A DNA stretch of 64,000 bases from Erythrobacter dokdonensis DSW-74 (GTDB taxonomy: Bacteria > Pseudomonadota > Alphaproteobacteria > Sphingomonadales > Sphingomonadaceae), in assembly GCF_001677335.1 (NCBI RefSeq), contig NZ_LZYB01000001.1, positions 620,001 through 684,000 on the forward strand, read 5' to 3'. Of the stretch, positions 5,177 to 62,233 are shown piece by piece. Position 1 is the stretch's first letter. Each line of letters opens with the position of its first letter. Under the pieces are notes generated by a model. It made no database searches. It was not told where the DNA came from and saw only the letters and a program-made list of their open reading frames with translations. Made by a program: the position numbers and the translations under genes.

Positions 5177-5194
5177 CGGGGGAGCGAGACGCTC

Positions 5195-6367: not shown

Positions 6368-6369
6368 CC

Positions 6370-8357: not shown

Positions 8358-9583
8358 TGGCGGACATCCTCTTCCTTGCCCACCGCGTTCCCTTCCCGCC
8401 CGACCGCGGCGACCGCATCCGTGCACACCACTTGCTGAAGGCCCTCGCACGGCTCGCGCCGGTTCATGTCGGCTGCTTTGCCGAAAGCGCGGCCGAGCGC
8501 ACAGGCGAAGCGGCGCTTGCCGCGCTTGCCGCATCCCATTGTATCGCGCCGCGCACCAAGCCTCTGGCAGTGGCGGGCATCGAGGCGGTGCTTGCGGGCA
8601 AGCCTGTCAGTATTGCCGCCTTTCACAGCCGCGAGCTCGCCGCTTGGGTGCGCAAGGCCATCGCACAGCATGATATTGGCGCCATCTTCGTGTTTTCTGG
8701 CCAGATGGGGCAATATGTGCCGGACGACTTTGCGGGCCGCGTCATAATCGACCTGTGCGATGTCGATAGCGCGAAATTTGCGAGCTATGCCGCGAACGGC
8801 GAGCGGGCGTGGATCAATAGCCGCGAGGCGCGTCTGCTGGCGCTCGAAGAGGAAGGGCTGGGTCGCCGCGCCGATGCCACGCTACTGATCTCCCATGCCG
8901 AGGCAGCGCTTTACCGCAGCCGTCTGAGCGCGCCTGACGAGGTCAATGTGCAGGTCGTCGGCAACGGGATCGATGCCGATTACTTCGATCCTGCCATCTT
9001 CGTGCCAGAGCCGATGCTTGCTAGCTTGCCGGGCCCGCATTTCGTCTTCACCGGGCAGATGGATTACCGCCCGAACGAACAGGCAGCGCTCTGGGCGATC
9101 GAGAAGCTCGTGCCGCAATTGCGCCTGCGCTATCCCGGCGCGCTGCTGCATGTGGTCGGGCGCAATCCCACCACCCGGTTGATGGCGCAGCACGGCCTGC
9201 CCGGCGTGCAGGTGTGGGGCGAAGTGCCCGATGTGCGGCCCTTTCTGGCCGGGGCGGACGTGGTGATCGCACCGCTGCTGATTGCACGCGGGGTGCAGAA
9301 CAAGGTGCTCGAGGCGATGGCCATGGCCCGCCCGGTGGTGCTGACCCCCGATGCGGCGACGGGCATCGCAGCGCAGGACGGGGTGCATTGGGTGACGAGC
9401 ACGGCCGATCCGCAGGCCATGTGCGCGGTGCTCGAACCGCTGCTCGCCGATCCCGATGCCCGCCTGCGGATCGGGGCCGCGGCGCGCCGCTTCGTGCTGG
9501 ATCATCATGGCTGGGATGCGGTGCTCGCAGCGCTGCCAGCTTTGGTCGGGATGGTTGCGAAGGGTGAGCGCGATGCCGCCTGA
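8357..9583 (+). CDS. Glycosyltransferase group 1, XrtA/PEP-CTERM system-associated (TIGR03087 type)
   Basis: A 408-residue GT-B glycosyltransferase (GT4-like). The N-terminal Rossmann half begins LFLAHRVPFPPDRGDRIRAHH, and the C-terminal half has FVFTGQMDYRPNEQAA, LHVVGRNP, VWGEVPDVRPFLAGADVVIAP and the nucleotide-sugar-binding stretch NKVLEAMAMARPVV. It transfers a sugar during exopolysaccharide repeat-unit assembly at the cytoplasmic face of the membrane; donor and acceptor cannot be read from sequence. ATG 8357 overlaps the FemAB stop by one base. The exosortase gene begins 11 nt before its end. Confidence 0.88.
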   Translation: MADILFLAHRVPFPPDRGDRIRAHHLLKALARLAPVHVGCFAESAAERTGEAALAALAASHCIAPRTKPLAVAGIEAVLAGKPVSIAAFHSRELAAWVRKAIAQHDIGAIFVFSGQMGQYVPDDFAGRVIIDLCDVDSAKFASYAANGERAWINSREARLLALEEEGLGRRADATLLISHAEAALYRSRLSAPDEVNVQVVGNGIDADYFDPAIFVPEPMLASLPGPHFVFTGQMDYRPNEQAALWAIEKLVPQLRLRYPGALLHVVGRNPTTRLMAQHGLPGVQVWGEVPDVRPFLAGADVVIAPLLIARGVQNKVLEAMAMARPVVLTPDAATGIAAQDGVHWVTSTADPQAMCAVLEPLLADPDARLRIGAAARRFVLDHHGWDAVLAALPALVGMVAKGERDAA

Positions 9584-47554: not shown

Positions 47555-49105
47555 ATGGAAGGCCTTCCCATCCTGTCGCTGATGATGCTCGTGCCGCTGG
47601 CGGGCGCGCTTGCGTGCCTGTTCGCGGGCGCCAACGCGGCGCGGTGGATCGCGCTCGGAGCGACGCTTGTCACCTTCGCGCTCGGTATCGTGCTGTGGTC
47701 CAACTACGAGATCGGCGGGGCGCAGTGGCAATTCACCGAAAAGGCCGATCTGTTCGCAGGCTTCAGCTATGCGCTCGGGATCGACGGGATTGCGCTGCTG
47801 CTGATCATGCTCAGCGTGTTCCTGATGCCGGTCTGTATCCTCGCCAGCTGGGACTCGATCGAAAAGCGCGTCGGCGAATACATGGCCGCCTTCCTGTTCA
47901 TGGAAGTGCTGATGATCGGCACCTTCGCGGCGCAGGACCTGTTCCTGTTCTACGTCTTCTTCGAGGCGGGCCTGATCCCGATGTATCTGATCATCGGGGT
48001 GTGGGGCGGGGACAACCGCATCTACGCGAGCTACAAATTCTTCCTCTACACTCTGCTCGGCTCGGTTCTGATGCTGATCGCGATGTTCTGGATGGTGGCC
48101 GAGGCGGGCACGTCCGACATTCCGACGCTGATGCAGTACGATTTCCCGGCTGAGGCGCAGACCTGGCTGTGGCTGGCCTTCTTCGCCAGCTTTGCGGTCA
48201 AGGTCCCGATGTGGCCGCTGCACACCTGGCTGCCCGACGCGCACGTGCAGGCGCCCACCGCCGGTTCTGTCATCCTTGCGGGCGTGCTGCTCAAGCTAGG
48301 CGGCTATGGTTTCATCCGCTTCAGCCTGCCGATGTTCCCCGAGGCCTCCGCCCAGTTCGCATGGCTTGTGTTTGTGCTGTCGATGGTGGCGGTAGTCTAC
48401 ACCTCGCTGGTGGCGCTGGTGCAGGCCGACATGAAGAAGCTGATCGCCTATTCGTCCGTGGCGCACATGGCGATCGTCACCGTCGGCCTGTTCGCCTTCA
48501 ACGTGCAGGGGCTGGAAGGCGCGATGATCATCATGCTCAGCCACGGCCTTGTCTCGGGCGCTTTGTTCCTGTGCGTGGGGGTGATCTACGATCGCCTGCA
48601 CACCCGCGAGATCGCGCGCTATGGCGGCCTTGCGATCAACATGCCGTATTATGCGCTGTTCTTCCTGCTGTTCACCATGGCGAGCATCGGCCTGCCGGGC
48701 ACCAGCGGCTTCGTAGGCGAGTTCCTTGCGCTGGCGGGCATCTACCAGACCTCAAGCCTCGTCGCGCTGATTTCGACCACAGGCATCATCCTCGGCGCGG
48801 CCTATATGCTTTACCTCTATCGCCGGGTGGCCTTTGGCGGGCAGGTCAACGAGGACGCTGCTGCAATGTCCGATATCACGGCGCGCGAATGGGTGATGAT
48901 GGCGCCGATTGCCGCAGCGGTAATGTGGATGGGGGTTTACCCCGAAAGCTTCCTTGCGCCGATGCGCGCCGATATAGCGGTGCTCGACGCAAGGCTCGCC
49001 GCTGCAGCCCCCGCTTCTGATGCGCAGCTTGCCCCCGGCACTCCGCGCGCCGAGGCGGCCAATGCGGTCACCCATGATTCTGCCGCCGAGGAGGGCGCGC
49101 ACTGA
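47555..49105 (+). CDS. nuoM: NADH-quinone oxidoreductase subunit M
   Basis: A 516-residue antiporter-like proton-pumping subunit. Motifs are [53 protein letters not shown] and [12 protein letters not shown]. About fourteen helices. A short Ala-rich tail after the last helix is variable. ATG 47555 follows nuoL by 14 nt; the stop overlaps the nuoN ATG by one base. Confidence 0.97.
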
Positions 49106-50583
49106 TGGATTTCGCTCCTTCCTTCGCGCTGATCGCGCCTGAACTGCTGCTGATCGGCGCGGGCCTTGCGCTGCTGCTGGTCGCTGCCTGGGGCGGGGAC
49201 AAGGCCGCGCGCCCGATGGCGATCGCCGCCGCCGCTGCGCTGTTCGGCGCGGGCTTTCTGCTGGTGCCGGGCCTGCATCTCGGTGCGGACGGTCCGGCGA
49301 CGTTGGCATTTGGCGGCCTGATCAAGGTCGACAGTTTCGCGCTGTTCGCCAAAGCACTGATCTATCTTGCCGCGATCGGCGCGCTGATGGTGGCCCCGGC
49401 ATTCTTCACGAGTGCAGCTGCCGGCACCGAGCGGGTGATGCGCGCGGAATATCCCGTGCTGGTGGTCTTCGCGACCGTGGGCATGAGCATCATGGTCTCG
49501 GCCAATGATTTCATGAGCCTCTATCTCGGGCTCGAATTGAACAGCCTGTCGGCCTATGTGCTGGCCGCTATCCTGCGCAAGGACACCCGCTCGGGCGAGG
49601 CGGGGCTGAAGTATTTCGTGCTCGGCGCGCTTGCTTCGGGGATCCTGCTTTACGGGATGAGCCTGCTCTATGGCTTTACCGGCGGCACCAGCTTCACCGC
49701 AGTGCGCGCCGGCTTGAGCGGCGAGCTGGCCTATGGCCCGCTGTTCGGGGTGATCTTCGTGCTTGCCGGGCTCGCCTTCAAGATTAGCGCGGTGCCGTTC
49801 CACATGTGGACGCCGGATGTCTACGAAGGCGCGCCCACTCCGGTGACCGCCTTCTTCGCCACGGCTCCCAAGGTCGCTGCCGTCGCGCTCACCGCGCGGG
49901 TGGTGTTCGAGGTATTCGGCGCGCAGATCGCCGCCTGGCAGCAGATCGTGATGTTTACCGCGCTCGCCTCGATCATCTTCGGCGCGCTTGGCGCAATCGG
50001 TCAGGAGAATTTGAAGCGGCTGCTTGCCTATTCCTCGATCAACAATATCGGCTTCATCCTGCTCGGCCTCGCGGTCGCTAATCAGGCTGGCGCGAGCGCG
50101 ATGCTGGTCTACCTGTTCATCTATGTCGCGATGAGCCTCGGCAGCTTCGTCGCGCTGTTGATGCTGCGCGACGACGAGGGCGCGCTGTTCGAGACCTTCG
50201 CCGATATCCGCGGTCTTTCGGTCACGCGGCCCGCCATCGCGTGGGCGCTGCTGCTGTTCATGTTCAGCCTTGCGGGCATCCCGCCGCTGCTCGGCTTCTA
50301 CAGCAAGTTCGTGGTGTTCCAGGCGACGGTCGAGGCAGGCCTGATTGCCTTTGGTGCCATCGCCATCGCCGCGAGCGTGATCGGGGCGTTCTATTACATC
50401 AAGTTCGTCAAGGTGATGTTCTTCGATGAACCCGCAGGTGTTGTCACCGGCAAGAGCGAAACGGGCCACTGGGCGCTGCTCGGCCTTACGGCACTGATTA
50501 TCTCGCCGCTCGGCTATCTGCTCACCCCGTCGCTGAGCGATCTGGCCGACAAGGCCGCAGCCTCGCTGTTCCTCGCGGTTTGA
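49105..50583 (+). CDS. nuoN: NADH-quinone oxidoreductase subunit N
   Basis: A 492-residue antiporter-like proton-pumping subunit. Motifs are FMSLYLGLELNSLSAYVLAA, FHMWTPDVYEGAPTPVTAFFATAPKVAA and LKRLLAYSSINNIGFILLGL. It is the last complex I gene; birA starts inside its stop (TTGA), so the operon probably continues through birA, coaX and rnj. Confidence 0.97.
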   Translation: MDFAPSFALIAPELLLIGAGLALLLVAAWGGDKAARPMAIAAAAALFGAGFLLVPGLHLGADGPATLAFGGLIKVDSFALFAKALIYLAAIGALMVAPAFFTSAAAGTERVMRAEYPVLVVFATVGMSIMVSANDFMSLYLGLELNSLSAYVLAAILRKDTRSGEAGLKYFVLGALASGILLYGMSLLYGFTGGTSFTAVRAGLSGELAYGPLFGVIFVLAGLAFKISAVPFHMWTPDVYEGAPTPVTAFFATAPKVAAVALTARVVFEVFGAQIAAWQQIVMFTALASIIFGALGAIGQENLKRLLAYSSINNIGFILLGLAVANQAGASAMLVYLFIYVAMSLGSFVALLMLRDDEGALFETFADIRGLSVTRPAIAWALLLFMFSLAGIPPLLGFYSKFVVFQATVEAGLIAFGAIAIAASVIGAFYYIKFVKVMFFDEPAGVVTGKSETGHWALLGLTALIISPLGYLLTPSLSDLADKAAASLFLAV

Positions 50584-51290
50584 TCGAACTCGTCGAACAG
50601 ACCGGCTCGACCAACGCGGATCTCGCCGCGAAGCTGCGTTCGGGCGAGGGCTGGGCGGAGGGAGACTGGCTGGTCGCCCGACGCCAGACGGCAGGGCGCG
50701 GACGGCAGGGACGAGAATGGTTCGACGGCACAGGCAATTTCATGGGCTCGACTGTGGTGAGCCTCGGCGAGGGAGGTCCGCCACCTGCCACACTCAGCTT
50801 CGTCGCCGCGCTGGCCGTGCGCGATGCCTGTGCAGCCGCTTTGGGTGATAGAGGCAAGCTGGGACTCAAATGGCCCAATGACGTGCTGCTGGGTGGGGGC
50901 AAGCTTTCGGGCATCCTGCTTGAAATGGTCCGTGGGCACATCGTCGTGGGGATCGGGGTGAACCTCGCCCGCGCACCGCAATTGCCCGACCGCAAGACTG
51001 CGGCGTTCGCCGAGCTTTCCATGCCGCCGCAGCCGGAGGACTTTGCTGTCAGCCTTGCCGCCGCCTTTGATCGCAGGCTGGAGGCATGGAGGACCTACGG
51101 TCTCGGTGCCACGCTTCATGCCTTTCTTGGCGCATCGATCCATGCAGCCGGCTCGTCGCTAACCGTCCACGACACCGATGGCTCGGTGCTGTCGGGCTCC
51201 TTTGCGGGACTGGAGGAAAGTGACGGCGCTTTGCGGCTGCGCTTGGCGGATGGCAGCGAACGTGTCATTCGCGCAGGCGATATTTCGTAA
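50580..51290 (+). CDS. birA: Biotin--[acetyl-CoA-carboxylase] ligase
   Basis: A 236-residue monofunctional biotin protein ligase without the DNA-binding domain of E. coli BirA. Motifs are QTGSTNADLAAKL, the ATP/biotin loop QTAGRGRQGREWFDGTGNF (GRGRxGR) and LKWPNDVLLGGGKLSGILLE. It activates biotin as biotinyl-AMP and attaches it to the carboxylase carrier protein. Start is TTG 50580 overlapping the nuoN stop, a linkage common in alphaproteobacteria. Confidence 0.93.
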   Translation: MIELVEQTGSTNADLAAKLRSGEGWAEGDWLVARRQTAGRGRQGREWFDGTGNFMGSTVVSLGEGGPPPATLSFVAALAVRDACAAALGDRGKLGLKWPNDVLLGGGKLSGILLEMVRGHIVVGIGVNLARAPQLPDRKTAAFAELSMPPQPEDFAVSLAAAFDRRLEAWRTYGLGATLHAFLGASIHAAGSSLTVHDTDGSVLSGSFAGLEESDGALRLRLADGSERVIRAGDIS

Positions 51291-51307
51291 TCTGAGGAAA
51301 AAGGCCC

Positions 51308-52102
51308 ATGCTGCTCGCCGCCGATGTCGGGAACACCAATGTCGTCTTCGCGCTGTTCACCTACGAACCGGACGGGACGCACACCATTCGCGCCCGCTGG
51401 CGGATTGCCACCGATCCGCGCCGGACGGGCGACGAGTATGCGGTGTGGCTGCTGCAATTGCTCAAGATCGAGGGTGTCGAGCGGGACGAGATCACCCAGA
51501 TCATCGTCGCCTCGGTGGTGCCGCGCGCCGATCATAACCTGACGGTGTTATGCCAGAAATATTTCGGCATCACGCCGCTGTTTGCCGGGCAGGGCGCGGC
51601 GCGCTGGCGGTTTGATATCGACGTCGACCAGCCTTCCTCGCTCGGCGCCGACCGCGCGCTCAACATCCTGGCCGCCCATCACAAGTATGGCGGCGATCTG
51701 ATCGTGGTCGATTTCGGCACCGCCACCAAGTTCGAGGCGGTCGATTTCACCGGCGCCTACAAGGGCGGCTCGATTGCGCCCGGGATCAATCTTTCGCTCG
51801 ACGCGCTGGTGGGCAAGACCGCCAAGCTTCCGCGCATCGCCATCCGCGCACCCGAAAGCCGCAGCGTCATCGGCCGCAATACCGAAGACCAGATGCTGAT
51901 CGGCGTTTTCTGGGGCTATGTGGCAATGATGGAAGGGATGGTTGCGCGCATGAAGGGCGAAATCGGTCGTCCGGCAAAGGTTGTCGCCACCGGCGGGCTC
52001 GCCATATTGTTCGACGACGCAACCGAGATCTTCGATCATGTCGATGCCGACCTGACGCTCGATGGTCTCGCCATCCTGGCCCGACTTGCTGAAAACGCCT
52101 GA
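51308..52102 (+). CDS. coaX: Type III pantothenate kinase
   Basis: A 264-residue ASKHA-fold kinase that phosphorylates pantothenate, the first step of CoA synthesis. The phosphate loop is [16 protein letters not shown] (residues 2-17). [17 protein letters not shown] and [14 protein letters not shown] follow, then [15 protein letters not shown] and [11 protein letters not shown]. Preceded by GAGGAAAAAGG 3-9 nt before ATG 51308. Lies in the usual position between birA and rnj. Confidence 0.95.
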
Positions 52103-52129
52103 TCCTCTCATCACAGAACCGGACAGATC

Positions 52130-53785
52130 TTGAAGAACGATTTCGCTCCCGAAGACGAACTGCTTTTCCTCGCACTTGGTGGTTCGGGAGAGATTGGCAT
52201 GAACGTCAATCTCTACGGCTGTCAGGGCAAATGGCTGATGGTCGATCTCGGCATGACCTTTTCCGGCACCGAATATCCGGGGGTCGATCTGGTGTTTGCG
52301 GATCTCGATTTCATCGAGGAGCGGGTGGACGACCTGCTCGGCATCGTCCTCACTCACGCACACGAGGACCATATCGGCGCCGTGCCCTATTTCGCGGGCG
52401 AACTTGGCGTACCGCTTTATGCCACGCCTTTCACCGCCGATCTGGTGGCGCGAAAGCTGGAGGAGGCCGGGCTGCTCGGCAAGGTCGAACTCAACATCAT
52501 CGAAGATGACAGCGGCGCGCTCGACATCGGCCCGTTCAGCATCACCTATATCCCCCTCGCGCACTCGATTGCCGAGGGCAACGCGCTGCTGATCGATACC
52601 CCGCACGGGCGTATATTTCATACCGGCGACTGGAAGCTCGACGAGGAGCCGATCATCGGCGAGCCGACAACCGAGGAAGAACTGCGCGCCATCGGTGATG
52701 AAGGCGTGCTGGCGCTGGTGTGCGATTCCACCAATGTCTTCAATCCCAATCCTTCGGGCAGCGAAGGCGCGGTCCACCGCGCGCTGATGGAGGAGGTCGC
52801 GCGCCATTCCGGCAAGCGGGTGGTCGTGACCACCTTCGCAAGCAATGTCGCGCGGCTCCAGACGCTGGGCGAGGTTGCGCGCGAAACCGGGCGGCAGATC
52901 GTTGTCGCGGGCCGCTCGCTCGACCGGATCATCGAGGTGGCGCAGGACAATGGCTATCTGGAAGATTTTCCGACCCCGGTCGATTTCGACACCGCCATGG
53001 GCCTGCCGCGCGGCGAGGTGCTGATCCTTGCGACAGGCGGCCAGGGCGAGCCGCGTGCGGCGTTGGCGCGCATGGCCGAGAACAATCATCCGATCGAACT
53101 GACCGCCGGCGATGTGGTGCTGTTTTCCTCGCGCCAGATCCCGGGCAACGAGATTCCCATCGGCCGCATCCAGAACCAGCTTGCCGCGCGCGGGATCACG
53201 ATGGTGACCGACCGGCAGGCCTTCATCCACGTCTCGGGCCATCCGGGCCGGCCGGAGCTGGAAGCGCTCTACGAATGGCTCAAGCCCGAGGTGCTGGTGC
53301 CGGTACATGGCGAGATGCGCCACATGGCCGAGCAGGCGCGGGTCGGCAAGGCGGCGGGCATTCCGGCACAAGTGGTGCAGAAGAACGGCGATATCGTCCG
53401 CCTCGCGCCGGGCAAGCCGGGCAAGCTCGCCGAGGTGCGCGCGGGCCGTCTGGTGCTCGACGGCGACATCATTGCACCTGCGAACGGCGAAGCCATCACG
53501 ATGCGCCGCCGGATCGCTGCCGAGGGCGTGATGGTGGTGGTTCTGGTGCGCGGATCCGCCCCGATCATCGAAGCAATTGGCTTGCCGCTCGATGAGGATA
53601 TGCCCGATTTCCTCGAAGAGGCCGCCACAGACGTTCTCAACGCCATTTCCCGGCTTAAGGGCAAGGACGCGCGCGATCCGGCTGCGGTACACGAGGCCGC
53701 GCGCCTCGCTGCCCGCCGCGCGGCGCAGCGCTGGTCTGGCAAGCGTCCGCAAGTGCGGGTGGTGATGCCGGGGGCCGTCGACTGA
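52130..53785 (+). CDS. rnj: Ribonuclease J
   Basis: A 551-residue metallo-beta-lactamase/beta-CASP RNase acting on 5' ends and internally. The metal site is LTHAHEDHIG (His76, His78, Asp80, His81), with DSTNVFNP and the beta-CASP elements SSRQIPGNE and HVSGHPGRPE. The start is read as TTG 52130 (TTG AAG AAC GAT); no better start fits the family N-terminus EDELLFLALGGSGEIGMN. Its stop overlaps the DUF1467 ATG. RNase E is encoded in the same window, so this species has both RNA-decay systems. Confidence 0.94.
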   Translation: MKNDFAPEDELLFLALGGSGEIGMNVNLYGCQGKWLMVDLGMTFSGTEYPGVDLVFADLDFIEERVDDLLGIVLTHAHEDHIGAVPYFAGELGVPLYATPFTADLVARKLEEAGLLGKVELNIIEDDSGALDIGPFSITYIPLAHSIAEGNALLIDTPHGRIFHTGDWKLDEEPIIGEPTTEEELRAIGDEGVLALVCDSTNVFNPNPSGSEGAVHRALMEEVARHSGKRVVVTTFASNVARLQTLGEVARETGRQIVVAGRSLDRIIEVAQDNGYLEDFPTPVDFDTAMGLPRGEVLILATGGQGEPRAALARMAENNHPIELTAGDVVLFSSRQIPGNEIPIGRIQNQLAARGITMVTDRQAFIHVSGHPGRPELEALYEWLKPEVLVPVHGEMRHMAEQARVGKAAGIPAQVVQKNGDIVRLAPGKPGKLAEVRAGRLVLDGDIIAPANGEAITMRRRIAAEGVMVVVLVRGSAPIIEAIGLPLDEDMPDFLEEAATDVLNAISRLKGKDARDPAAVHEAARLAARRAAQRWSGKRPQVRVVMPGAVD

Positions 53786-54069
53786 TGCAGATCACCTCGA
53801 TTGCGGCGATCTACTTCCTGTTCTGGGTCATGAGTGCCTTTGTCATGCTGCCCTTTGGTGTGCGCACGGCAGATGAGGCCGGTGTCGAGAAGGTGCCCGG
53901 ACAGGCCGAGAGCGCGCCGGTGAATTTCCGGCCTGGCCGGTTGGCTCTGCGGGCAACGATCATCGCCGCTTTGCTTACCGCGCTGTTCGTGGCGAACTAC
54001 GAATACGCATGGATCACCATCGCCGATATCGACGTTCTGCCCAAACCGCCGGGAGCGGCCGCAGACTAG
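53785..54069 (+). CDS. DUF1467 family membrane protein
   Basis: A 94-residue two-helix protein. Helix 1 is about 3-24 (ITSIAAIYFLFWVMSAFVMLPF), then VRTADEAG and PGQAESAPVNFRP, and helix 2 is about 57-80. The sequence pattern matches DUF1467, a small alphaproteobacterial family of unknown function that is regularly found after rnj. It starts 1 nt inside the rnj stop. Its TAG stop overlaps the stop of the convergent coiled-coil gene in a CTAG. Confidence 0.85.
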   Translation: MQITSIAAIYFLFWVMSAFVMLPFGVRTADEAGVEKVPGQAESAPVNFRPGRLALRATIIAALLTALFVANYEYAWITIADIDVLPKPPGAAAD

Positions 54070-56621
54070 TTGCGGAAGCGCTGGATCGCCTGGGCGAGCA
54101 CCACGTAAAGCTTGCCCATGTCGGAACCCAGCATCGTCACGCTCAGCACATGGCCGTCACGTGTCGAAAGGGTCGAACGCAGCATTGCCTCGAAGTCGTG
54201 GATGTAGCGGCTGACATTGGTCCTGAAGGCTTCGTCACGCTGGTAAAGATCTGCAATGTCCCGCGCACCGCCATTGTCGATCAGACGGACCGCGCGACGG
54301 GTGAAAATCCCGCGATCGCCCTTGAGATAGGCATCCCATGCCGTATCGGCGACCTCCGCCGACAGCGCGCCGCTGATATCGATGGCCGCCGAATTGAGGC
54401 TGTCGGTAATCAACGCCATGCGCCGCGCGAAGTCGTTGTTGACCTGTTCTTCTGCCAGTTCTCGGGCACGACTGACGCGCTGTTCGAGATTGCCGGTCAG
54501 CTCGTTCACCCGCACCAACTGGTCGCGCAGCTGGATGATGACCTCGCGCCCGACGCCCGAAGCGTGGGCGGTAGCCTGCTCGATCTTTCCGATGGTAGCT
54601 GCGCTTTCGTTGCGCAAGGTTCTCTCAAGCACTTCCACGGCTTCGCTGCCGAGGCTTTCGGCCAGCGCTGTAGCTCTCTCGCGGGTTCCTTCCTCCAGTG
54701 TCGCGAAGGCCTGCGCAATGGCGGTCTCGAGCGCCGCCAGGGCCGTGCGGAGCTGTGTTTGCGTGTCGCCCGCAAGCGCGCCGCTCTCCTCGGCCAGCCG
54801 GGCAAACCCGCCTCGCAGTCCCTGCAATTTTGCCAAAGCATCGTCCGACTGTTCGGAAAGCTTGGCGCGGAAGTCCGCTATGGCCGCGTCCGCTGCCTCG
54901 ATGTCGCTACGGGTCTTGAGCAGGTATTCTGAAAGGTCATTACCGCTCTGGCCGGTCCGCAGCATGAGCTGGCTGACGTCGCTTGCGCGCCTTTCCACGG
55001 CAACAAGACTTTCATTGGCCGAGCCGATTGCCTGCTGCAGGTCTTCCCGGCTCGTGCGCGCACCCGACTGGATGATTTCAAGCAGACGGATACCGCTTTC
55101 GGTTAGCTCTGCGAGCTTTGCTTCGGTTTCGGAGAGGGCGGCGCGCTTGGCGTTGAGTTTGTCGCCAAGCTCCTCGAACCCGGTCGCAAGACTGGTGCGC
55201 GCGGTCTCGCCCTGCTGGCCGATTTCCCCGAGCAACGCACCGAACCGGTCAAGTTGCGCGGCCAGCGCCTCGCCCTGCTCGACCAGTTTTTCGGCATCGG
55301 CGATCTGGGCCTCGCGTCGTTGGGCCAGAGCGTCATCAAGCGCTGCAAGGCGCTGTGAGAGCACTTCGCTGGCCTGGGCTTCGCGGGTGTCGAAAGCGGC
55401 CTGGCGCTGCTCGACTGCCTCGGCAAATTGCAGATCGCGTTCAGCAAGACGCGCGTCGATCCGCTCGGCTTCCCCGGTGATCGCCGCAATCCGCTTGCGC
55501 GCGGCGTCAAGTGCGCGTGCTTCGGTCTCCTCGACCAGCTGCAGGCGCGCGGCGACTTCCTGTTCAAGCGCCGCGAGTTCTGCGCGCATGTGTTCTCGCG
55601 CCGCTTCGTCGGCTGCGCGCAGACGTTCGCTTGCGGAAGCAATATCGGCTTCAAGCTGCGCGGTTTGTGACCGCAAGGCCTCGAGCGCCGCAGCCTCCGT
55701 CGCCTCCAACCTCTCGCGGTAAGCCGAAGCTTCTTCTTGCAGGCCGGTGAAGCGGTTGGCGACCAACCCCTCGATCCGCGCGACCTGCGTCTCGAAGCTG
55801 TCGATGGTCTGTCCCACGGTTGTGGCCAGGCCCTGGATCTGGGCTTCGCTGCTTGAGCCAAGCTTGCCAAGCTGTTCAAAGCCGCGGGTGAGCTGTTCCA
55901 GTTGCGCCGCGGCATTATTGCCCGCACCGCCGATCTGGTTGGCGACGTCCCGGGCGGCATTCGCGATTACCGGCAGATCGTCGCGCAGTCTGTTCATGTT
56001 CCCGAGCGCGGTTTCGCTCGCCGTGCCGATCGCATCGACCTGCGCGCCGTTGGTGGTGACGAGCTGTTGCAGTTCTGCGGCATGCGCGGAAATGCGCTCG
56101 GCCGCTATCCGGCCAAGCGCCTCCAGATCGCGCGATTGCGCGGCGAGAAACTCGCGGGCGAGGCTGAGTTCACGGTTGACGATCTTCAGCCGCTCCTCGA
56201 GCTGGGCGCTTTCGCGGCTGAGCAGGGCAGCGCTGGCGGCAAACCGGCCGGCTTCGGCGCGCGAGGAGCGCATCGCCAGCAGCCAGACAATACCGACGAG
56301 CCCGACAGGGACCGACCATTGCACAAGCCATCCGGCCCAGACGGAAGGCCCCGGTCCCGAGATCGCCTCGGAGGTGATCGTCCAGCCGAAAAAGCCGGTC
56401 CAGCCGATAACCAGCACAATCGCCAGCCACGGTGCCAGCCGGCTCGCTAGCGAGGGTGCCGGTATTTCCGAAGGTCCGTCTTCCCAAACGTCATCAAGCA
56501 ACAGTTCCGACTCTTCAGCCGTTGCCTCGTTCGCCTGTCCTTCTGCCGGAACGGGGTTTGTTCCGACATCGCCCGGGCTGCTATTGCGCCCCAAGGCGCG
56601 CATCTGGTGCCGTCCTGCCAT
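54066..56621 (-). CDS. Membrane-anchored coiled-coil protein, TipN-like
   Basis: An 851-residue protein. A 60-residue acidic N-terminus is followed by two membrane helices (about 63-84, WLAIVLVIGWTGFFGWTI; about 95-117), a very long Ala/Glu/Arg/Gln-rich coiled coil (about 120-730) and a compact C-terminal region (about 735-851) with DTAWDAYLKGDRGIFTRRAV, RYIHDFEAMLRS and LGSDMGKLYVVLAQAIQRF. Size, twin N-terminal helices and coiled coil resemble the Caulobacter polarity factor TipN; this is inference from layout, not a tested homology. ATG 56621 is read as the start, with a second ATG at residue 7. It is divergent from an Hpt-like gene across 70 bp that contain a CtrA-box-like sequence. Confidence 0.72.
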   Translation of the reverse strand: MAGRHQMRALGRNSSPGDVGTNPVPAEGQANEATAEESELLLDDVWEDGPSEIPAPSLASRLAPWLAIVLVIGWTGFFGWTITSEAISGPGPSVWAGWLVQWSVPVGLVGIVWLLAMRSSRAEAGRFAASAALLSRESAQLEERLKIVNRELSLAREFLAAQSRDLEALGRIAAERISAHAAELQQLVTTNGAQVDAIGTASETALGNMNRLRDDLPVIANAARDVANQIGGAGNNAAAQLEQLTRGFEQLGKLGSSSEAQIQGLATTVGQTIDSFETQVARIEGLVANRFTGLQEEASAYRERLEATEAAALEALRSQTAQLEADIASASERLRAADEAAREHMRAELAALEQEVAARLQLVEETEARALDAARKRIAAITGEAERIDARLAERDLQFAEAVEQRQAAFDTREAQASEVLSQRLAALDDALAQRREAQIADAEKLVEQGEALAAQLDRFGALLGEIGQQGETARTSLATGFEELGDKLNAKRAALSETEAKLAELTESGIRLLEIIQSGARTSREDLQQAIGSANESLVAVERRASDVSQLMLRTGQSGNDLSEYLLKTRSDIEAADAAIADFRAKLSEQSDDALAKLQGLRGGFARLAEESGALAGDTQTQLRTALAALETAIAQAFATLEEGTRERATALAESLGSEAVEVLERTLRNESAATIGKIEQATAHASGVGREVIIQLRDQLVRVNELTGNLEQRVSRARELAEEQVNNDFARRMALITDSLNSAAIDISGALSAEVADTAWDAYLKGDRGIFTRRAVRLIDNGGARDIADLYQRDEAFRTNVSRYIHDFEAMLRSTLSTRDGHVLSVTMLGSDMGKLYVVLAQAIQRFRN

Positions 56622-56651
56622 AAATGCATCATACCACAGCCGGAAACGGGA

Positions 56652-56667
56652 TAAACCCCGCTTTAAC
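56652..56667 (+). promoter_or_regulatory. Putative CtrA-type box A (divergent region)
   Basis: TAAA-CCCCGCT-TTAAC matches the CtrA box TTAA-N7-TTAAC at all but one position. It lies in the 70-bp divergent gap between the coiled-coil gene and the Hpt-like gene, ending 24 nt before the Hpt-like ATG at 56692. It shares 11 of 16 bases with box B at 58309-58324. Motif match only. Confidence 0.45.
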
Positions 56668-56691
56668 CTAAAGGATGGTAGCCCCTTTCGT

Positions 56692-57003
56692 ATGGCCTAT
56701 GACAATGGTGCCCTTGATGCGACCCTTGCGGCAGCCGCCGGCGACAATCCCGCGCTGTTGGGTGAACTGCGCGCTGCGTTTCTCGAAAGCGCGACACGCC
56801 AGCTTGACCTGCTCAAGCGCGCCCGCTGTGACGGCAACTGGAACGTTGCGGCGATGCGGCTCAAGGGTCTTGCAGCGAGTTTCCACGCCGAGGAACTGCT
56901 CGCCGCGGCCGACAAGGCGCTCAATGCCGCTCCAGGCGAGCCGATGGCGATCCGCGAGATCGAAGGCGTCATCAACCGCTTCACGCGCACGGTCCGGCCC
57001 TGA
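56692..57003 (+). CDS. Hpt-like protein without phospho-acceptor histidine
   Basis: A 103-residue helical protein reading like an Hpt (histidine phosphotransfer) bundle. The segment AAMRLKGLAASFHAEEL (about 53-69) aligns with the HxLKGxA motif, but the phospho-accepting His position is Met55. Lys58-Gly59 are kept. It could be a non-phosphorylated docking protein, or another His could serve; His66 nearby is unusually placed. ATG 56692 is the only plausible start and has a poorly spaced AAGGA. Flanked upstream by a CtrA-like box and downstream by the nucleotidyltransferase-like gene. Confidence 0.6.
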   Translation: MAYDNGALDATLAAAAGDNPALLGELRAAFLESATRQLDLLKRARCDGNWNVAAMRLKGLAASFHAEELLAAADKALNAAPGEPMAIREIEGVINRFTRTVRP

Positions 57004-57116
57004 TCCTTCCGGCCGCCGGCCATTTTCGGCAAATCGACCTCCGGATGGCTTGAACCGCTGGCGCGGAAGCGCCAATCCTTGCGCTTTCGGCACCGCATTG
57101 GGAAAGGCGACAGGCG

Positions 57117-58307
57117 ATGCGAACGGCCCTTGTGGCGGCGCTCAGACACAGCTCGGACGGCACCTTGCGCGCGGGTCTTTCGCTTGCGGGCCGGACGGTG
57201 CTGGCGCGGCAGGTCGACCTGCTGCGCGAGCTGGGCTGTGAACGTATCCTGTGCCTGTGCGAGAAGGTCGACGCGGTGGTTCTGCAAGTGCAGGCCGATG
57301 TCGAGGCTTCCGGCGGAACCTTCGAGGCGCTGAGCGGCTTTCTTCGCCTGCCAGCTCTGGTGCGGGCCGAGGATGAGCTGGTGATCCTCGCCGACGGGAT
57401 CCTGCCTGATCTTGCGCCGGCCCATGCGCTGTTCTCGGCGCCACCACTACGCTTTGTCGCAGCGTTACCGCCGACAAGCCCTCTCGTGATGCGCTATCCG
57501 CAAGATTTCGAGCGGATCGATGCCGAGCATCACTGGGCCGGACTGCTGGCGATGCGCGGCGCGCCGGTTCAGCACCTAGCCGACTTCCCGCCGGACTCCG
57601 ATGCGATCTCGCTGCTCCTGCGGCTTGCCCTGCAGGCGGGCACCCCATTCCGCGAGCTTCCGGCCACGGCCGATGCGCCGGGTCAATGGTTGCTGGCCGA
57701 TGACAGCGCAATGGTTGCCGAGCAGGAACGGGCGCTTATCATCGCCGCGACGGGAAGTTCAGACTGGCGTGCTCCGGCAACAGCTCTGGCCCGAATTGCA
57801 GCGCGCCGGACACCGCCGCAGGCACTGGAGCAGCGGAGCCTTGTTGCGGCTTGCTGCGGTGCCCTGCTGCTTGTGGCCGGTGCGGGCCTTGCCGGATGGG
57901 GCACCCCCGCATGGGGGATGGCGCTCGCCAGTGGCGGTGCCCTGGCCATGACGTTTGCGGGTGCACTTGGCCGCCTGCGCCAGCGCCTGGTCGGCAAGCG
58001 GTCCGGGTTCGTGACAGGTGAGCGTGCCGGAGTGGCGATCGATATCCTCGCGGCACTTGCCGTGCTGTTGGCTCTTGCGCCCTGGCCGCAGGCCGAGCCG
58101 CTGGCGGTGTTGGGGCCGGTCACGATCGGGCTTGCGCGATTGCTGAACCGCTGGGCGCCGTCCTCGCGCCTTGGCCCGCTGGCCGAGCGCCCGGTGCTGC
58201 TAACACTCTTCGCGCTCGCGGCCGGGTTCGGGCTGCTTGCCAAGGCTACGGCGCTGGTTGCACTCTTCCTGCTGTTCGGATTGCTGCTGCGGGGCGAGCG
58301 GAATTGA
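57117..58307 (+). CDS. Nucleotidyltransferase-like membrane protein, function unknown
   Basis: A 396-residue two-part protein. The N-terminal half (about 1-200) resembles the GT-A/MobA nucleotidyltransferase fold: AGRTVLARQVDLLRELGCERILCL is the typical beta-alpha-beta start and LVILADGILPDL the second strand with an Asp. The C-terminal half (about 240-396) has about five helices, including AACCGALLLVAGAGLAGWG and LLTLFALAAGFGLLAKATAL. Similar N-terminal domains are fused to membrane CDP-alcohol phosphatidyltransferases in some species, but the DG(x)2AR(x)8G signature of those enzymes is not seen. GGAAAGG precedes ATG 57117. Located between the Hpt-like and box B-controlled genes. Confidence 0.55.
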   Translation: MRTALVAALRHSSDGTLRAGLSLAGRTVLARQVDLLRELGCERILCLCEKVDAVVLQVQADVEASGGTFEALSGFLRLPALVRAEDELVILADGILPDLAPAHALFSAPPLRFVAALPPTSPLVMRYPQDFERIDAEHHWAGLLAMRGAPVQHLADFPPDSDAISLLLRLALQAGTPFRELPATADAPGQWLLADDSAMVAEQERALIIAATGSSDWRAPATALARIAARRTPPQALEQRSLVAACCGALLLVAGAGLAGWGTPAWGMALASGGALAMTFAGALGRLRQRLVGKRSGFVTGERAGVAIDILAALAVLLALAPWPQAEPLAVLGPVTIGLARLLNRWAPSSRLGPLAERPVLLTLFALAAGFGLLAKATALVALFLLFGLLLRGERN

Positions 58308-58308
58308 A

Positions 58309-58324
58309 CTAACGCAGATTTAAC
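58309..58324 (+). promoter_or_regulatory. Putative CtrA-type box B
   Basis: CTAA-CGCAGAT-TTAAC matches TTAA-N7-TTAAC at all but one position. It starts 1 nt after the upstream stop codon and ends 23 nt before the ATG at 58348, nearly the spacing of box A. TTAA-containing words are rare in DNA this GC-rich, which strengthens the match, but binding is unproven. Confidence 0.45.
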
Positions 58325-58347
58325 TATGCGCGCATTAAGGCTGCATG

Positions 58348-59274
58348 ATGGGCGAAAAGGCAATGGCACCTGCGACCGCAACTTCGGTCGACACGCTCCT
58401 TGAGCAGGAACTGGCGCGCGAGAACCGCGCGCTGGCCGCAGTCGTGCCCGTGCTGCGCCACCTTCTGGCAAGCGAAGCGCAAAGACTGGTGAGCGATGCG
58501 ATCCTCGCCCGGGTTCGCGGAATGTTGTCCGATCTTGCCGCGCAGCTTCTCGCATTGGAGGCAGGTCTTGATCCCGCCCTGCGCCGGGCGGGCGCGGTGG
58601 ATGTGGCGGCGCACGATGCCCTGGCAGAAACCCTTGCCGCGGACCCTGAACTGCTGTCGCTTTGCCATGCTCTTGCTACCGAAAGCCATCTGGCCGAGCG
58701 GCTCCAGCAACAGCACGGGATGGATCCGGTGCTGAGCCCGCTGCTGCAGGAACTGATTGCTTCCGACAGACCGCAGGTTGCCGAGCTGGCCATGAACGCG
58801 CTCGCGGCGCAATCACGCTTCATCCAGAGCCAGCGCCGCATGGAATTGGGGCTATGCGAGCTTCCGGCAGAGCTGTTCCACCGGATGATTGCAGGTTGCG
58901 GACCATCCGAGGCACGCGCCGCGCTCCAGCAGGCCTATGACGAGGCAGCTGGCCGGATCGGCCTGTTTGCTCGGCTTGTTTCGGCGATGCGGCGCGGAGC
59001 GGTGGCGGCGCTCGAGCTGGAACATGCCGGTCTTGCACTGTTTGCCAGTGCGCTCGCCGCGCTCGGTGGTCAACTCCGTGCTCATGCGGTCATTGCATGC
59101 CAGGAACATCAGAGCGGGCGGCTAGCGCTTGTTCTGAAGGCTGCCGGGCTGGAGATCGAGGCGATCGAGCGGCAGGTGCTGTTTGTCGACCCTGCGGCGC
59201 GGATCCCGCGGGATCTCGTCACAATATCTCCCGAGCGTGCGCGGTTGCTGCTGGAAGCGGGCGCGGCCGAATGA
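58348..59274 (+). CDS. Helical protein of unknown function, possibly DUF2336-like
   Basis: A 308-residue, Ala/Leu/Glu/Arg-rich soluble protein, predicted almost entirely helical. It begins with LLEQELARENRALAAVVPVL and includes repeated helix pairs such as ALAETLAADPELLSLCHAL and PLLQELIASDRPQVAELAMNALAAQSRFIQ. It recalls HEAT-like alphaproteobacterial DUF2336 proteins, but no diagnostic motif was found, so the label is tentative. ATG 58348 is preferred over the adjacent ATG 58345 because AAGG is then 7 nt away. It overlaps the kinase-like gene by 4 nt, so the two are translated together and may act as partners. Confidence 0.55.
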   Translation: MGEKAMAPATATSVDTLLEQELARENRALAAVVPVLRHLLASEAQRLVSDAILARVRGMLSDLAAQLLALEAGLDPALRRAGAVDVAAHDALAETLAADPELLSLCHALATESHLAERLQQQHGMDPVLSPLLQELIASDRPQVAELAMNALAAQSRFIQSQRRMELGLCELPAELFHRMIAGCGPSEARAALQQAYDEAAGRIGLFARLVSAMRRGAVAALELEHAGLALFASALAALGGQLRAHAVIACQEHQSGRLALVLKAAGLEIEAIERQVLFVDPAARIPRDLVTISPERARLLLEAGAAE

Positions 59275-60677
59275 ACACGATGGATCGCCGCGATACTCTG
59301 CTTGCGGCCCGCGGGCTGACCGATGCCCGCGACTGGCTGATGAGCGCCGATGAGCCTCTTGCCGAACTCCAGGCGCGCTGCGGGGGGAGCATCCCCGGTC
59401 CGTTGGCCGTGCCAGAACTGCGCGAGCTCGTGCGCCAGAGCCGGGCAATGGGCTTGCGGCTTGCGCGCGAATTCTCGGCCTTTGACGGTGAGGCTCTGGT
59501 TACGGGTTTCGTGCGGATCCATCCTATTGCCGGGGATGCCGACGACGGGTGCGAAGTCCTGGTCGAAAACTGGCAGCGCAGCCTGCAGTCCGTGCCCGAG
59601 GGCCGCGAATTTGCCGAGCGCCTCGATGCGATCGACCGCGCTACCGCCGAAGTCACCGCCAGGCTCGATGCGCGCCAGCGCGTCCAGGTGCTGAGCGCTC
59701 TGGCTTCCGATGCCGTTGATCTGCAGAAGTCCGCGATGGCAAGGCCGGCGGAGGTCTGGAGCAAGTTTGTCGAACTGCCCGGTATTGCCCATCGCCAGCC
59801 GTTGCACTGGCGCTTGCTTGACGGGGCGGCATGCCGCTTTGCCGGCTCGCAGCGGCAATGGCGGGTGCGTCTGATCCCGCTCGGGCCCGACCCGCAGTCC
59901 CCTTCCGGCTTTGAACTGCTTTTGATCGCCGACGAGCCGCTGGCCACGGTGACCGCGCCGCACGGGCATGACGAGCACGAAGAGCCGCCGCCCGCGCGGC
60001 TCATCGGGAGCGCGCTTGCCCCGGTGCTGCGCCAGCCGGTCGCCCGCATCATCGCCAATGCCGAAACCATCAAAGCGCGCCTCGCCGGACCCTTGCGCGA
60101 AGAATACAGCGACTACGCCGGCACCATTGCCAGCGCGGGTCAACACCTTGCAGCGATGCTGGACGATCTTGCCGATCTTGAAGTGGTGGAGACCCCCGGC
60201 TTCAAAACGGCGCGGGAACCCGTCGATCTGGCCGATGCGGCGCAGCGGGCGGCAGGTATTCTTGGCGTGCGGGCGCAGAACCGCGAGATCAGGCTGATCG
60301 TTTCGGGCGAACGGGCAAAGGCGGTGGCGACCGCCGAGTTCCGGCGCGTTCTCCAGATCCTCATCAATCTGGTCGGCAACGCCATCGCCTACGCGCCGCA
60401 GGGAAGCACCGTTACGATCCTCGCCGGCACGCCGGGCGAGGGGCGTGTTTCCGTAAGCGTTGCCGATGAAGGTCCCGGCGTCACCCCCGAACAGGCCACC
60501 CGCATTTTCGACAAGGGAGAACGTCTCGGCCGCGACAGCGACGGCGGGCGGGACAAGGGGTCGGGCCTTGGCCTTTACATCTCGCGCCGTCTCGCGCGGG
60601 CGATGGAAGGCGAACTGACGGTCGAACCCGCACCGGGCGGCGGCGCCTTGTTCCGGCTCGAACTTCCCGCCGCCTGA
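59271..60677 (+). CDS. Histidine-kinase-like protein lacking the phospho-histidine
   Basis: A 468-residue cytoplasmic protein. A long N-terminal sensory-type region has no membrane helix. A HisKA-like helix region (about 243-305) follows, where the HELRTP motif reads P-V-L-R-Q-P at 251-256, putting Pro251 where the phosphorylated His should be. The C-terminal HATPase_c domain looks intact: N-box ILINLVGNAIAYAP, G1 VADEGPGVTP, and G2 GSGLGLYISRRLA. It can probably bind ATP, but not autophosphorylate at the usual site; regulatory pseudokinases such as Caulobacter DivL provide a precedent. ATG 59271 overlaps the upstream stop (ATGA). Confidence 0.78.
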   Translation: MNTMDRRDTLLAARGLTDARDWLMSADEPLAELQARCGGSIPGPLAVPELRELVRQSRAMGLRLAREFSAFDGEALVTGFVRIHPIAGDADDGCEVLVENWQRSLQSVPEGREFAERLDAIDRATAEVTARLDARQRVQVLSALASDAVDLQKSAMARPAEVWSKFVELPGIAHRQPLHWRLLDGAACRFAGSQRQWRVRLIPLGPDPQSPSGFELLLIADEPLATVTAPHGHDEHEEPPPARLIGSALAPVLRQPVARIIANAETIKARLAGPLREEYSDYAGTIASAGQHLAAMLDDLADLEVVETPGFKTAREPVDLADAAQRAAGILGVRAQNREIRLIVSGERAKAVATAEFRRVLQILINLVGNAIAYAPQGSTVTILAGTPGEGRVSVSVADEGPGVTPEQATRIFDKGERLGRDSDGGRDKGSGLGLYISRRLARAMEGELTVEPAPGGGALFRLELPAA

Positions 60678-60891: not shown

Positions 60892-62178
60892 TCAGCGCTT
60901 GTCGAGCGGGATGTAGTCGCGCTGCGTCGGCCCGGTGTAGAGCTGGCGCGGACGCCCGATCTTCTGGCCGGGGTCGGAGATCATCTCGTTCCACTGTGCC
61001 ACCCAGCCGACGGTGCGGGCGAGCGCGAAAAGCGCGGTGAACATGGTGGTGGGGAAACCGATCGCCGAGAGGATGATGCCCGAATAGAAATCGACGTTCG
61101 GGAACAGCTTCTTCTCGATGAAATAGGGATCGTTGAGCGCGATCTCTTCCAGCTGCAGCGCGGTTTCGAACAGCGGATCGTTGACCTTCAGCGCATCGAA
61201 CACTTCGCGCACGGTCTTCTGCATCACCGTCGCGCGCGGATCGTAGTTCTTGTACACGCGGTGGCCGAAGCCCATCAGGCGGAACGGATCGTTCTTGTCC
61301 TTGGCGCGCTCGATATAGTGCGGGATCTTGTCGGGGGTGCCGATCTCGCGCAGCATGTTGAGCGCGGCCTCGTTGGCGCCGCCATGCGCCGGGCCCCACA
61401 GACAGGCGATGCCGGCCGCGATGCAGGCAAACGGGTTCGCACCCGAGGATCCGGCAAGGCGCACGGTCGAGGTCGAGGCGTTCTGTTCGTGGTCGGCATG
61501 GAGGATGAAGATCCGGTCCATCGCGCGCTCCACCGCCGGGATCACCTCATATTCCTCGGCCGGAACGCCAAAGGTCATGCGCAGGAAATTGCCGGTATAG
61601 GACAGCGAGTTGTCCGGATACATGAAGGGCTGGCCGACCGCGTATTTGTAGGCCATCGCCGCGATCGTCGGCATCTTGGCAATCAGGCGGTGCGAGGAAA
61701 TCTTGCGGTGTTCCGGATCGGAGATGTCGGTGCTGTCGTGATAGAAGGCCGACAGCGCCCCGACCACGCCGCACATGATCGCCATCGGGTGCGCATCGCG
61801 GCGGAAGCCCCGATAGAAGGTCATCAGCTGCTCGTGCAGCATGGTGTGGCGGGTGATAGTGTAGGTGAAGTCGTCAAGTTCGTCCTTGCTCGGCAGCTCG
61901 CCGTTCAGGAGCAGGTAGGAGACTTCCATGAAGCTCGAATGTTCGGCCAGCTGGCCGATCGGGTAGCCGCGGTGTAGCAGGACGCCTTCATCACCGTCGA
62001 TATAGGTCAGCGCGCTTTCGCAGGACGCGGTCGAGGTGAAGCCGGGGTCAAAGGTGAACGCACCCGTCTGCGCGTAAAGCTTGCGGATGTCGATCACGTC
62101 GGGGCCGGTGCTGCCTTCCAGCACGGGATACTCGTATGTCGTCCCGCCCAGTTCCAGTTTCGCCGACTTGTCTGCCAA
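60892..62178 (-). CDS. gltA: Citrate synthase
   Basis: A 428-residue type II (hexameric, NADH-sensitive class) citrate synthase, condensing acetyl-CoA and oxaloacetate at the entry of the TCA cycle. Catalytic His regions are in [16 protein letters not shown] and [13 protein letters not shown], and the Asp is in [12 protein letters not shown]. The start is TTG 62178: AGGAGA lies 6 nt upstream and the protein then begins [11 protein letters not shown] as in relatives; an ATG at 62196 would place the ribosome-binding site inside the gene. It follows gltX by 55 nt. Confidence 0.96.
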
Positions 62179-62233
62179 GGTGTGTCTCCTGTCCAAATAT
62201 ACCGGTCCTGCCCTGCGCCCTCACGCAGCCTGC

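Follow-up and report, generated by a model that had tools for sequence, protein, structure and literature searches.

Can proteins built like the parts of a phosphorelay, and lacking the histidines that would carry its phosphate, work together as one system? The question is raised by five adjacent genes, A to E, of Erythrobacter dokdonensis DSW-74. They lie in a stretch of 64,000 nucleotides (contig NZ_LZYB01000001.1, positions 620,001 to 684,000), here called the window, and a sequence-only reading had grouped them as a possible polarity or cell-cycle signalling module. The five open reading frames were found where that reading had placed them, and its descriptions of the genes were confirmed. 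We consider it rather probable that the cluster is a phosphorelay-derived module that transfers no phosphate, is attached to a polar scaffold and is timed by CtrA. No paper on such a five-gene cluster was found among the titles and opening abstract lines of the open-licence literature.

Relatives were compared across 139 loci: 19 of the genus, 40 from an order sample (found mostly by B or D matches) and 80 from named genomes, the best 80 of 573 matches to an alignment of A. The named and unnamed collections share genomes; merging loci with identical protein ends left 127 distinct loci, and raw tallies over the overlapping sets count some genomes twice. All loci were selected by matches to A, B or D and form a non-random sample. 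The order sample holds 196 genomes, 113 of the window's family (f1) and 83 of other families, a split counted by hand; from named relatives, f1 was taken as Sphingomonadaceae and the order as Sphingomonadales.

Phospho-histidine sites of proteins B and E

Protein E exceeded both Pfam cut-offs of a histidine kinase (HisKA, 27.8 against 26.9 bits; HATPase_c, 85.2 against 26.4 bits), and Pro251 occupies its phospho-histidine site; that the histidine is missing had been noted in the sequence-only reading. Among 122 readable rows, a tally that excludes rows below 150 bits, the site held Pro in 110, Ser in 4, Arg in 3, Gln in 2 and Thr, Asn or Ala in 1 each. Histidine was absent from all 110 of 110 distinct loci and occurred in 0/23 E rows of a second, partly overlapping set. 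The N, G1, F and G2 boxes were retained in 121–122 of the readable rows, and the helices around the lost histidine are very conserved. Three histidine-bearing matches to the E model (L112, L117 and L134; 16–31 bits) were set aside as apparently other kinases, two of them falling outside E in the tree. By sequence, E is a histidine-kinase homologue without its histidine and with intact ATP-site boxes, and it may bind ATP.

Protein B scored 13.7 bits against the Pfam Hpt model (PF01627), below the cut-off of 24.6, and was not among the six Hpt matches at E 1 in its own genome, where two Hpt domains over the cut-off retain their histidine. Met55 occupies the phospho-histidine site. The 127 matches to a B model carried Met (80), Leu (20), Gln (10), Glu (4), Trp (4), Ala (2), His (2) and Asp, Gly, Tyr, Arg or Ser (1 each) at this position, so that histidine was absent in 125/127, or in 114/116 distinct loci; the two histidine-bearing matches come from locus L118, of another family, and L119, of genome G071. 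In 18 sequences of the genus, 43 positions of B are invariant, including most of the Hpt core without the histidine; around the site this core is invariant or nearly so, with Met replacing His. On this alignment B is an Hpt protein deprived of its phosphoryl-accepting histidine, in line with its first description as Hpt-like.

The genome of DSW-74 holds 14 HisKA matches, 12 of which keep their histidine; the exceptions are E and a kinase with the motif MSYEFRTP and Tyr at the site (L283, C1:340543), which we take from this motif to be DivL-like. E resembles DivL, described in excerpts of the literature as a kinase core with the phospho-histidine replaced and the ATP boxes kept (PMC4211667). 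It differs in carrying Pro or other residues where DivL has Tyr, and in its linkage to a DUF2336 relative, the DivL-like kinase being a separate gene.

This likeness suggests one alternative, which we regard as unlikely: E and B would have retained their docking faces, bind phosphorylated receivers of the DivK or CtrA-pathway type and alter CckA/ChpT activity near the pole, non-catalytic in themselves and still part of a phospho-signalling network. DivL is described as acting in this way and as sitting at one pole (PMC4211667), a DivL-like kinase exists in the same genome, the helices around the lost histidine of E are conserved, and the CtrA-like boxes of the cluster suggest a tie to that network. 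However, the linked receiver gene was not found in 112/113 family genomes, and the E site varies (P, S, R, Q, G, K, E, D, N, T, A), whereas DivL has Tyr. The reading we prefer remains that of a module passing no phosphate, and its other members bear on it as follows.

Homologies of proteins A, C and D

Protein A has two N-terminal hydrophobic segments by hydropathy (62–80 and 97–117). Its model matched 182/196 genomes of the order, including 113/113 of the family (count by hand), and 76/240 genomes of the class, chiefly through the C-terminal domain. The closest named match among the best 80 listed was Erythrobacter fulvus (77% in the best segment); an apolipoprotein-type model, PF01442, gave a weak match (E 0.54, 10.4 bits, cut-off 90). 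In pairwise comparison, A aligned over 112 amino acids at 37.5% identity (E 7.7e-19) with a protein of 2,089 amino acids in the Sinorhizobium meliloti plasmid record CP090106.1 (pSymB), where it is annotated as a kinesin. We identify this protein as RgsE because its length equals that published for RgsE, a GPR homologue of 2,089 amino acids according to excerpts of PMC7327166.

The hydropathy peaks of RgsE (117–138 and about 152–186) predict a topology shared with A, two N-terminal segments in each. RgsE (SMc00190) is described as anchored by two transmembrane helices and largely cytoplasmic, and the C terminus of GPR as required for function (PMC7327166, PMC8262873). A shares with RgsE a homologous C-terminal domain as well as the two segments, and in S. 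meliloti, too, the scaffold gene is flanked by a divergently oriented Hpt gene. The two differ in that A has 851 amino acids against about 2,100, its Hpt neighbour lacks the histidine that the S. meliloti neighbour keeps, and the annotation of the 18 kb around rgsE shows no counterpart of C, D or E. GPR itself (Agrobacterium tumefaciens) was likened to A through RgsE and published descriptions, not through its own sequence. By this homology A is a relative of the polar-growth scaffold RgsE/GPR, and it may be polar itself. The S. meliloti Hpt with intact histidine lies at 2087–2455 of the fetched locus (L280), divergent and upstream of rgsE at 3073–9342. Papers linking an Hpt with RgsE or the growth pole ring were not found among the open-licence literature, in which excerpts of PMC9022086 mention both, unrelated to each other.

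The sequence-only reading had called A a TipN-like membrane coiled-coil protein. Its two hydrophobic segments bear out part of this, and RgsE/GPR-like is the better description: the resemblance to TipN in size and topology is one that we presume, by description and not by sequence. TipN of Caulobacter crescentus is described as a polar coiled-coil scaffold (PMC7083601, PMC10127582).

Protein C gave a sub-threshold nucleotidyltransferase-like Pfam match and has C-terminal hydrophobic helices, which agrees with its description as a nucleotidyltransferase-like membrane protein. An AF2 model (predicted local distance difference test, pLDDT, 94.3) matched best, along the full length of C, the bifunctional membrane enzyme IPCT-DIPPS (PDB 4mnd; Foldseek E 1.3e-11; VIA Z 23.6, root-mean-square deviation 6.0, 361 residues aligned). 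The catalytic motifs of that enzyme were not found. What we take to be the nucleotide loop, G.G[ST]R, matched 2/125 C sequences, and the presumed CDP-alcohol signature, D..D[GA]..[AGS], matched 1/125; neither had a convincing position, and both are absent from C of the window. As modelled, C has the fold of a bifunctional nucleotidyltransferase/CDP-alcohol transferase and lacks both catalytic motifs.

The intact ATP-site boxes of E, together with the IPCT-DIPPS-like fold of C and its conserved ERxD motif, would also suit a quite improbable alternative in which catalysis persists in E, B or C along some unusual route: E would phosphorylate another residue or protein, or C would be a nucleotidyl- or phosphatidyl-type transferase with non-canonical motifs. 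Against it, the acceptor site of E varies freely, and the few motif matches in C (2/125 and 1/125) are nowhere convincingly placed. A module of non-catalytic proteins remains our preferred reading.

Protein D had been listed as an unrecognised helical protein. The helical part stands: its AF2 model is all helix (pLDDT 93.9), and neither Pfam (at E 1) nor NCBIfam (at E 0.1) had a match to it. Nothing in the PDB matched its fold (best values: Foldseek E 0.15, VIA Z 3.7), which does not show a new fold, and a scan of the genome contigs with D found no relative. D is, however, recognisable by profile comparison. It does not reach the cut-off of DUF2336 (PF10098), which has no match in its own genome either, and the link was regained only through outgroup genes after the direct Pfam search had given none: D matched outgroup DUF2336 proteins at 94.5% and intermediates at 97.7%, and the intermediates matched DUF2336 at 99.8%. 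One intermediate (L266) exceeds the DUF2336 cut-off with 51.7 bits; another (L114) has no Pfam match. On these profiles, D is a strongly diverged DUF2336 protein. The D-E pair resembles DUF2336 and PAS histidine kinase pairs in order and homology and differs from them in that D lies below detection by the Pfam model and E lacks its histidine. No papers on DUF2336 were found among the open-licence literature. The features are collected in Table 1.

Table 1. Positions of the cluster genes and CtrA-like boxes in the window, and of the receiver gene at other loci
Feature	Position	Strand	Description
Gene A	54066..56621	-	851-aa membrane-anchored helical protein, RgsE/GPR-type; conserved C-terminal domain at about residues 725-846
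Gene B	56692..57003	+	103-aa Hpt-like protein, Met at phospho-His position (pseudo-Hpt)
Gene C	57117..58307	+	396-aa protein; nucleotidyltransferase-like and CDP-alcohol-transferase-like membrane domains, catalytic motifs not found
Gene D	58345..59274	+	309-aa all-helical protein, strongly diverged DUF2336 relative
Gene E	59271..60677	+	468-aa histidine-kinase homologue, Pro at phospho-His position, N/G1/F/G2 boxes intact (pseudo-kinase)
CtrA-like box TAAA-N7-TTAA	56652..56666	.	Divergent A/B promoter region
CtrA-like box CTAA-N7-TTAA	58309..58323	.	Between C and D
Receiver gene	L118 6885-7433; L119 8197-8745; loci within L240-L256		

Likely ancestral state and origin of the cluster

Outside the window's family, A stood beside an intact Hpt and/or a receiver in 13/13 uncut loci (7 with Hpt and receiver, 1 with Hpt only, 5 with receiver only); three further loci were short contigs. 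All nine Hpts read, eight from other families and that of L119 within f1, carry the histidine; they were found by histidine-containing models, which a histidine-less Hpt could have escaped. The receiver gene was found in 68/83 other-family genomes against 1/113 of the window's family. Its product, encoded near A in other families, consists of a receiver alone, is highly conserved and bears a GPDRRR motif towards the end. Read against what we take to be the CheY motif, 11 of 13 sequences have Asn at the phospho-site, and the other 2, from family f8, have Asp. In 10 scanned loci from other orders, the neighbours of A were mostly unrelated genes, with no Hpt or receiver.

Relatives of E outside the derived group directly follow a DUF2336-type gene at all seven loci fetched, and all seven of these kinases have an intact histidine (HELRTP/HELKTP boxes). 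The DUF2336 scores of the outgroup genes were 214–228 bits in the four scanned, and HisKA and HATPase_c were both present in the two kinases scanned. At loci L272–L278, which come from several families, a PAS histidine kinase with intact histidine immediately follows a DUF2336-type gene. One sampled f1 genome, G071, keeps the old state: an Hpt with histidine and a receiver beside A (L119), and a DUF2336-kinase pair with histidine elsewhere (L272).

In a maximum-likelihood tree, the 23 histidine-less E rows formed one clade (100/100) on a long branch (2.27). This clade grouped with 7 outgroup-type kinases to the exclusion of 11 further ones, with support of 90/93, which does not reach the tool's star level. 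Those 11 comprise 8 HisKA proteins of the DSW-74 genome, out of 13 besides E, and 3 kinases from other loci, out of 5, two having been left out because they lacked the motif used for excision; several of the 11 form long branches. Since the histidine-less rows make up one clade, the loss of the kinase histidine looks like a single event, in a clade that also lacks the Hpt histidine and the receiver; the losses may have been simultaneous. By these comparisons, descent from phosphorelay parts is well supported, and the ancestral state was likely one of two loci, A with Hpt and/or receiver at one and DUF2336 with an intact kinase at the other.

Gene order, promoter boxes and proposed mechanism of the cluster

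The arrangement A< B> C> D> E> occurs in many members of the window's family (Erythrobacter, Qipengyuania, Novosphingobium). All five genes stood in order at 93 of the 127 distinct loci; 8 lacked B, 5 lacked C, 2 had no detectable D, 7 held A and B only, 10 were cut by contig ends and 2 were fragments without A. By set, the genus had A in 17 of 19 loci (15 with all five in order, one without detectable C at L031 and one cut by its contig); the order sample of 40 loci had 24 with all five, 6 without B, 1 without C, 2 without detectable D and 7 with A and B only, two of them of the ancestral type (L118 and L119); the best 80 of the 573 named matches had 65 with all five, 9 cut by contigs, 3 without C and 3 without B. 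D and E share an ATGA overlap in the window, and their gap is -4, -1, 2, 3 or 4 bases in 84/108 relatives' loci. The expectation that the same five families would recur in order was thus largely borne out, with the proviso that they are separable: 12 genomes have A at one place and C and E at another.

Adjacency alone is weak evidence, because the whole stretch from nuoN to gltX is syntenic throughout the relatives. It is on this ground that the five genes might be neighbours only through a conserved piece of chromosome, with A, C and E doing unrelated jobs: the nuoN-birA-coaX-rnj-DUF1467 and gltA-gltX segments are syntenic as well, C and E are apart from A in those 12 genomes, and B or C is sometimes missing. 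We hold this to be rather improbable. The order is retained at three loci with both flanks changed (L106, L132 and L137, where rnj and gltA are both absent from the 18 kb fetched), and at L133 with one flank changed (no rnj). Moreover, the histidines of B and E and the receiver gene were lost in the same sampled clade and are all kept in G071, and D and E, which overlap or nearly touch in 84/108 loci, are already paired outside the family. The grouping into one system is partly supported in this way, by three loci with both flanks changed and against a background of general synteny.

Genes that we take, by similarity, to be nuoN, birA, coaX, rnj and DUF1467 form the conserved stretch left of A in most relatives seen (window 49105–54069), and gltA, for citrate synthase (60892–62196), adjoins E in convergent orientation at most of the loci seen. 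In genus g30 (L252 and L254), A directly adjoins gltA with none of B to E between, a possible empty or lost site. The citrate synthase CitA of Caulobacter is described as a cell-cycle regulator in a study that also uses tipN mutants (excerpts of PMC7083601); the parallel with gltA next to E is possibly a coincidence.

The sequence-only reading had also placed CtrA-type boxes before two of the genes. Both are present, each one mismatch from the TTAA-N7-TTAA consensus that we assume for CtrA. The window alone gave 3 box matches against 1.2 expected, with at least 3 in 12/100 shuffles, which is not significant. Across relatives, at least 7 of 8 consensus bases were found in the A/B region at 98/119 loci (88/108 distinct) against 3.7% of base shuffles, and in the gap between C and D at 73/114 loci (65/102 distinct) against 1.0%; TTAACC or its complement occurred in the A/B region of 89/119 loci against 5.4 expected. 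These figures come from base shuffles of related sequences, which overstate independence. The CtrA-like boxes before A/B and D are conserved across relatives beyond shuffles. Scans for sigma-70 promoters and terminators gave nothing above chance. Loss of CtrA is described as having no negative effect on viability in Sphingomonas melonis (excerpts of PMC8116508).

Purifying selection acts on all five genes: the ratio of nonsynonymous to synonymous rates (dN/dS) between the window and L021 was 0.16 for A, 0.10 for B, 0.31 for C, 0.21 for D and 0.14 for E, against 0.08 for the control genes coaX and rnj, the ratios of the five genes being rough at a dS close to 1. As the main explanation, pseudogene decay was rejected on account of the open frames and this selection. 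That the cluster is a relict, a relay losing its function stepwise and without a present role, is highly improbable: receiver Asp, Hpt histidine, kinase histidine and receiver gene are all lost, B and C are missing in some genomes and the branch to E is long, yet the frames are open with dN/dS of 0.10–0.31, B keeps 43 invariant positions with most of its Hpt core in the 18 genus sequences, and cluster genes occur in many genera of the family.

Several observations weigh against a conserved, phosphotransfer-free module. Its members are not uniformly found: B was detected in 76/113 family genomes at E 0.001 and D, by a narrow genus model, in 57/113, while B, C and D went undetected in 8, 5 and 2 of the 127 distinct loci. 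E had no match at E 1e-35 in 9/113 family genomes (104/113 matched), a threshold that also passes kinases in 72/83 other-family genomes and does not alone define E. D at L114 and L132 was called by a model built from those two frames (79.6% profile match to D); the wider D models contain some loci later scored with them (L114 and L132; alignment A6), and D matches there by construction. Of the 12 separate C/E loci, 11 still adjoin gltA in the fetched stretch and 3 have a detectable D; two of the genomes concerned (G106 and G134) yielded no B anywhere. The outgroup A-Hpt and D-kinase units lie at different loci, so that a partnership between them there is conjectural, and outside the order a small Hpt gene was near A only at L235 among 20 class loci fetched, plus S. 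meliloti. With Asn in 11/13 receivers, the ancestral relay may already have been unconventional. Finally, the rows are mutually related, and the tallies count non-independent events.

Under the module reading, which we continue to prefer, the ancestor would have had an RgsE/GPR-type scaffold gene divergent beside an Hpt and/or receiver gene and, at a second locus, a PAS histidine kinase gene directly preceded by one for DUF2336. Within the window's family these units would have been joined and the membrane pseudoenzyme C gained, and the histidines of Hpt and kinase would have been lost along with the receiver gene. In the present-day cell, A would sit in the inner membrane and assemble at the growing or new pole. 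The pseudo-Hpt B would dock on A and/or on the kinase-like core of E, serving as an Hpt-fold linker. E, made together with its DUF2336-type partner or adaptor D, would bind ATP and act as an ATP-dependent switch, changing conformation when its N-terminal region receives a signal, with no phosphate passed on; C would anchor or sense at the membrane. The A/B and D promoters would be timed by CtrA or by another factor that recognises a similar site. Polar position, binding partners, the binding of ATP by E, the signal and the output are all proposals.

We put forward more tentatively, as a possibility somewhat short of an even one, that a whole polar-scaffold phosphorelay of kinase, Hpt and receiver was converted as a unit, within one family, into a phosphotransfer-free structural switch encoded with an inactive membrane enzyme in one CtrA-timed cluster. 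Single pseudo-kinases such as DivL are already known. If the reading is right, this cluster would show, as a natural experiment, how signalling proteins turn into structural ones: its Hpt, its kinase and its membrane enzyme are all without catalytic residues, it adjoins a scaffold gene of RgsE/GPR type, and relatives preserve intermediates. The cluster offers specific candidate binding partners for the uncharacterised core protein A, gives DUF2336 a context and points to the Hpt gene beside S. meliloti rgsE; if the conversion of a whole relay is true, it would also suggest that RgsE/GPR-type growth poles in some other Alphaproteobacteria are wired to a live phosphorelay through a neighbouring Hpt.

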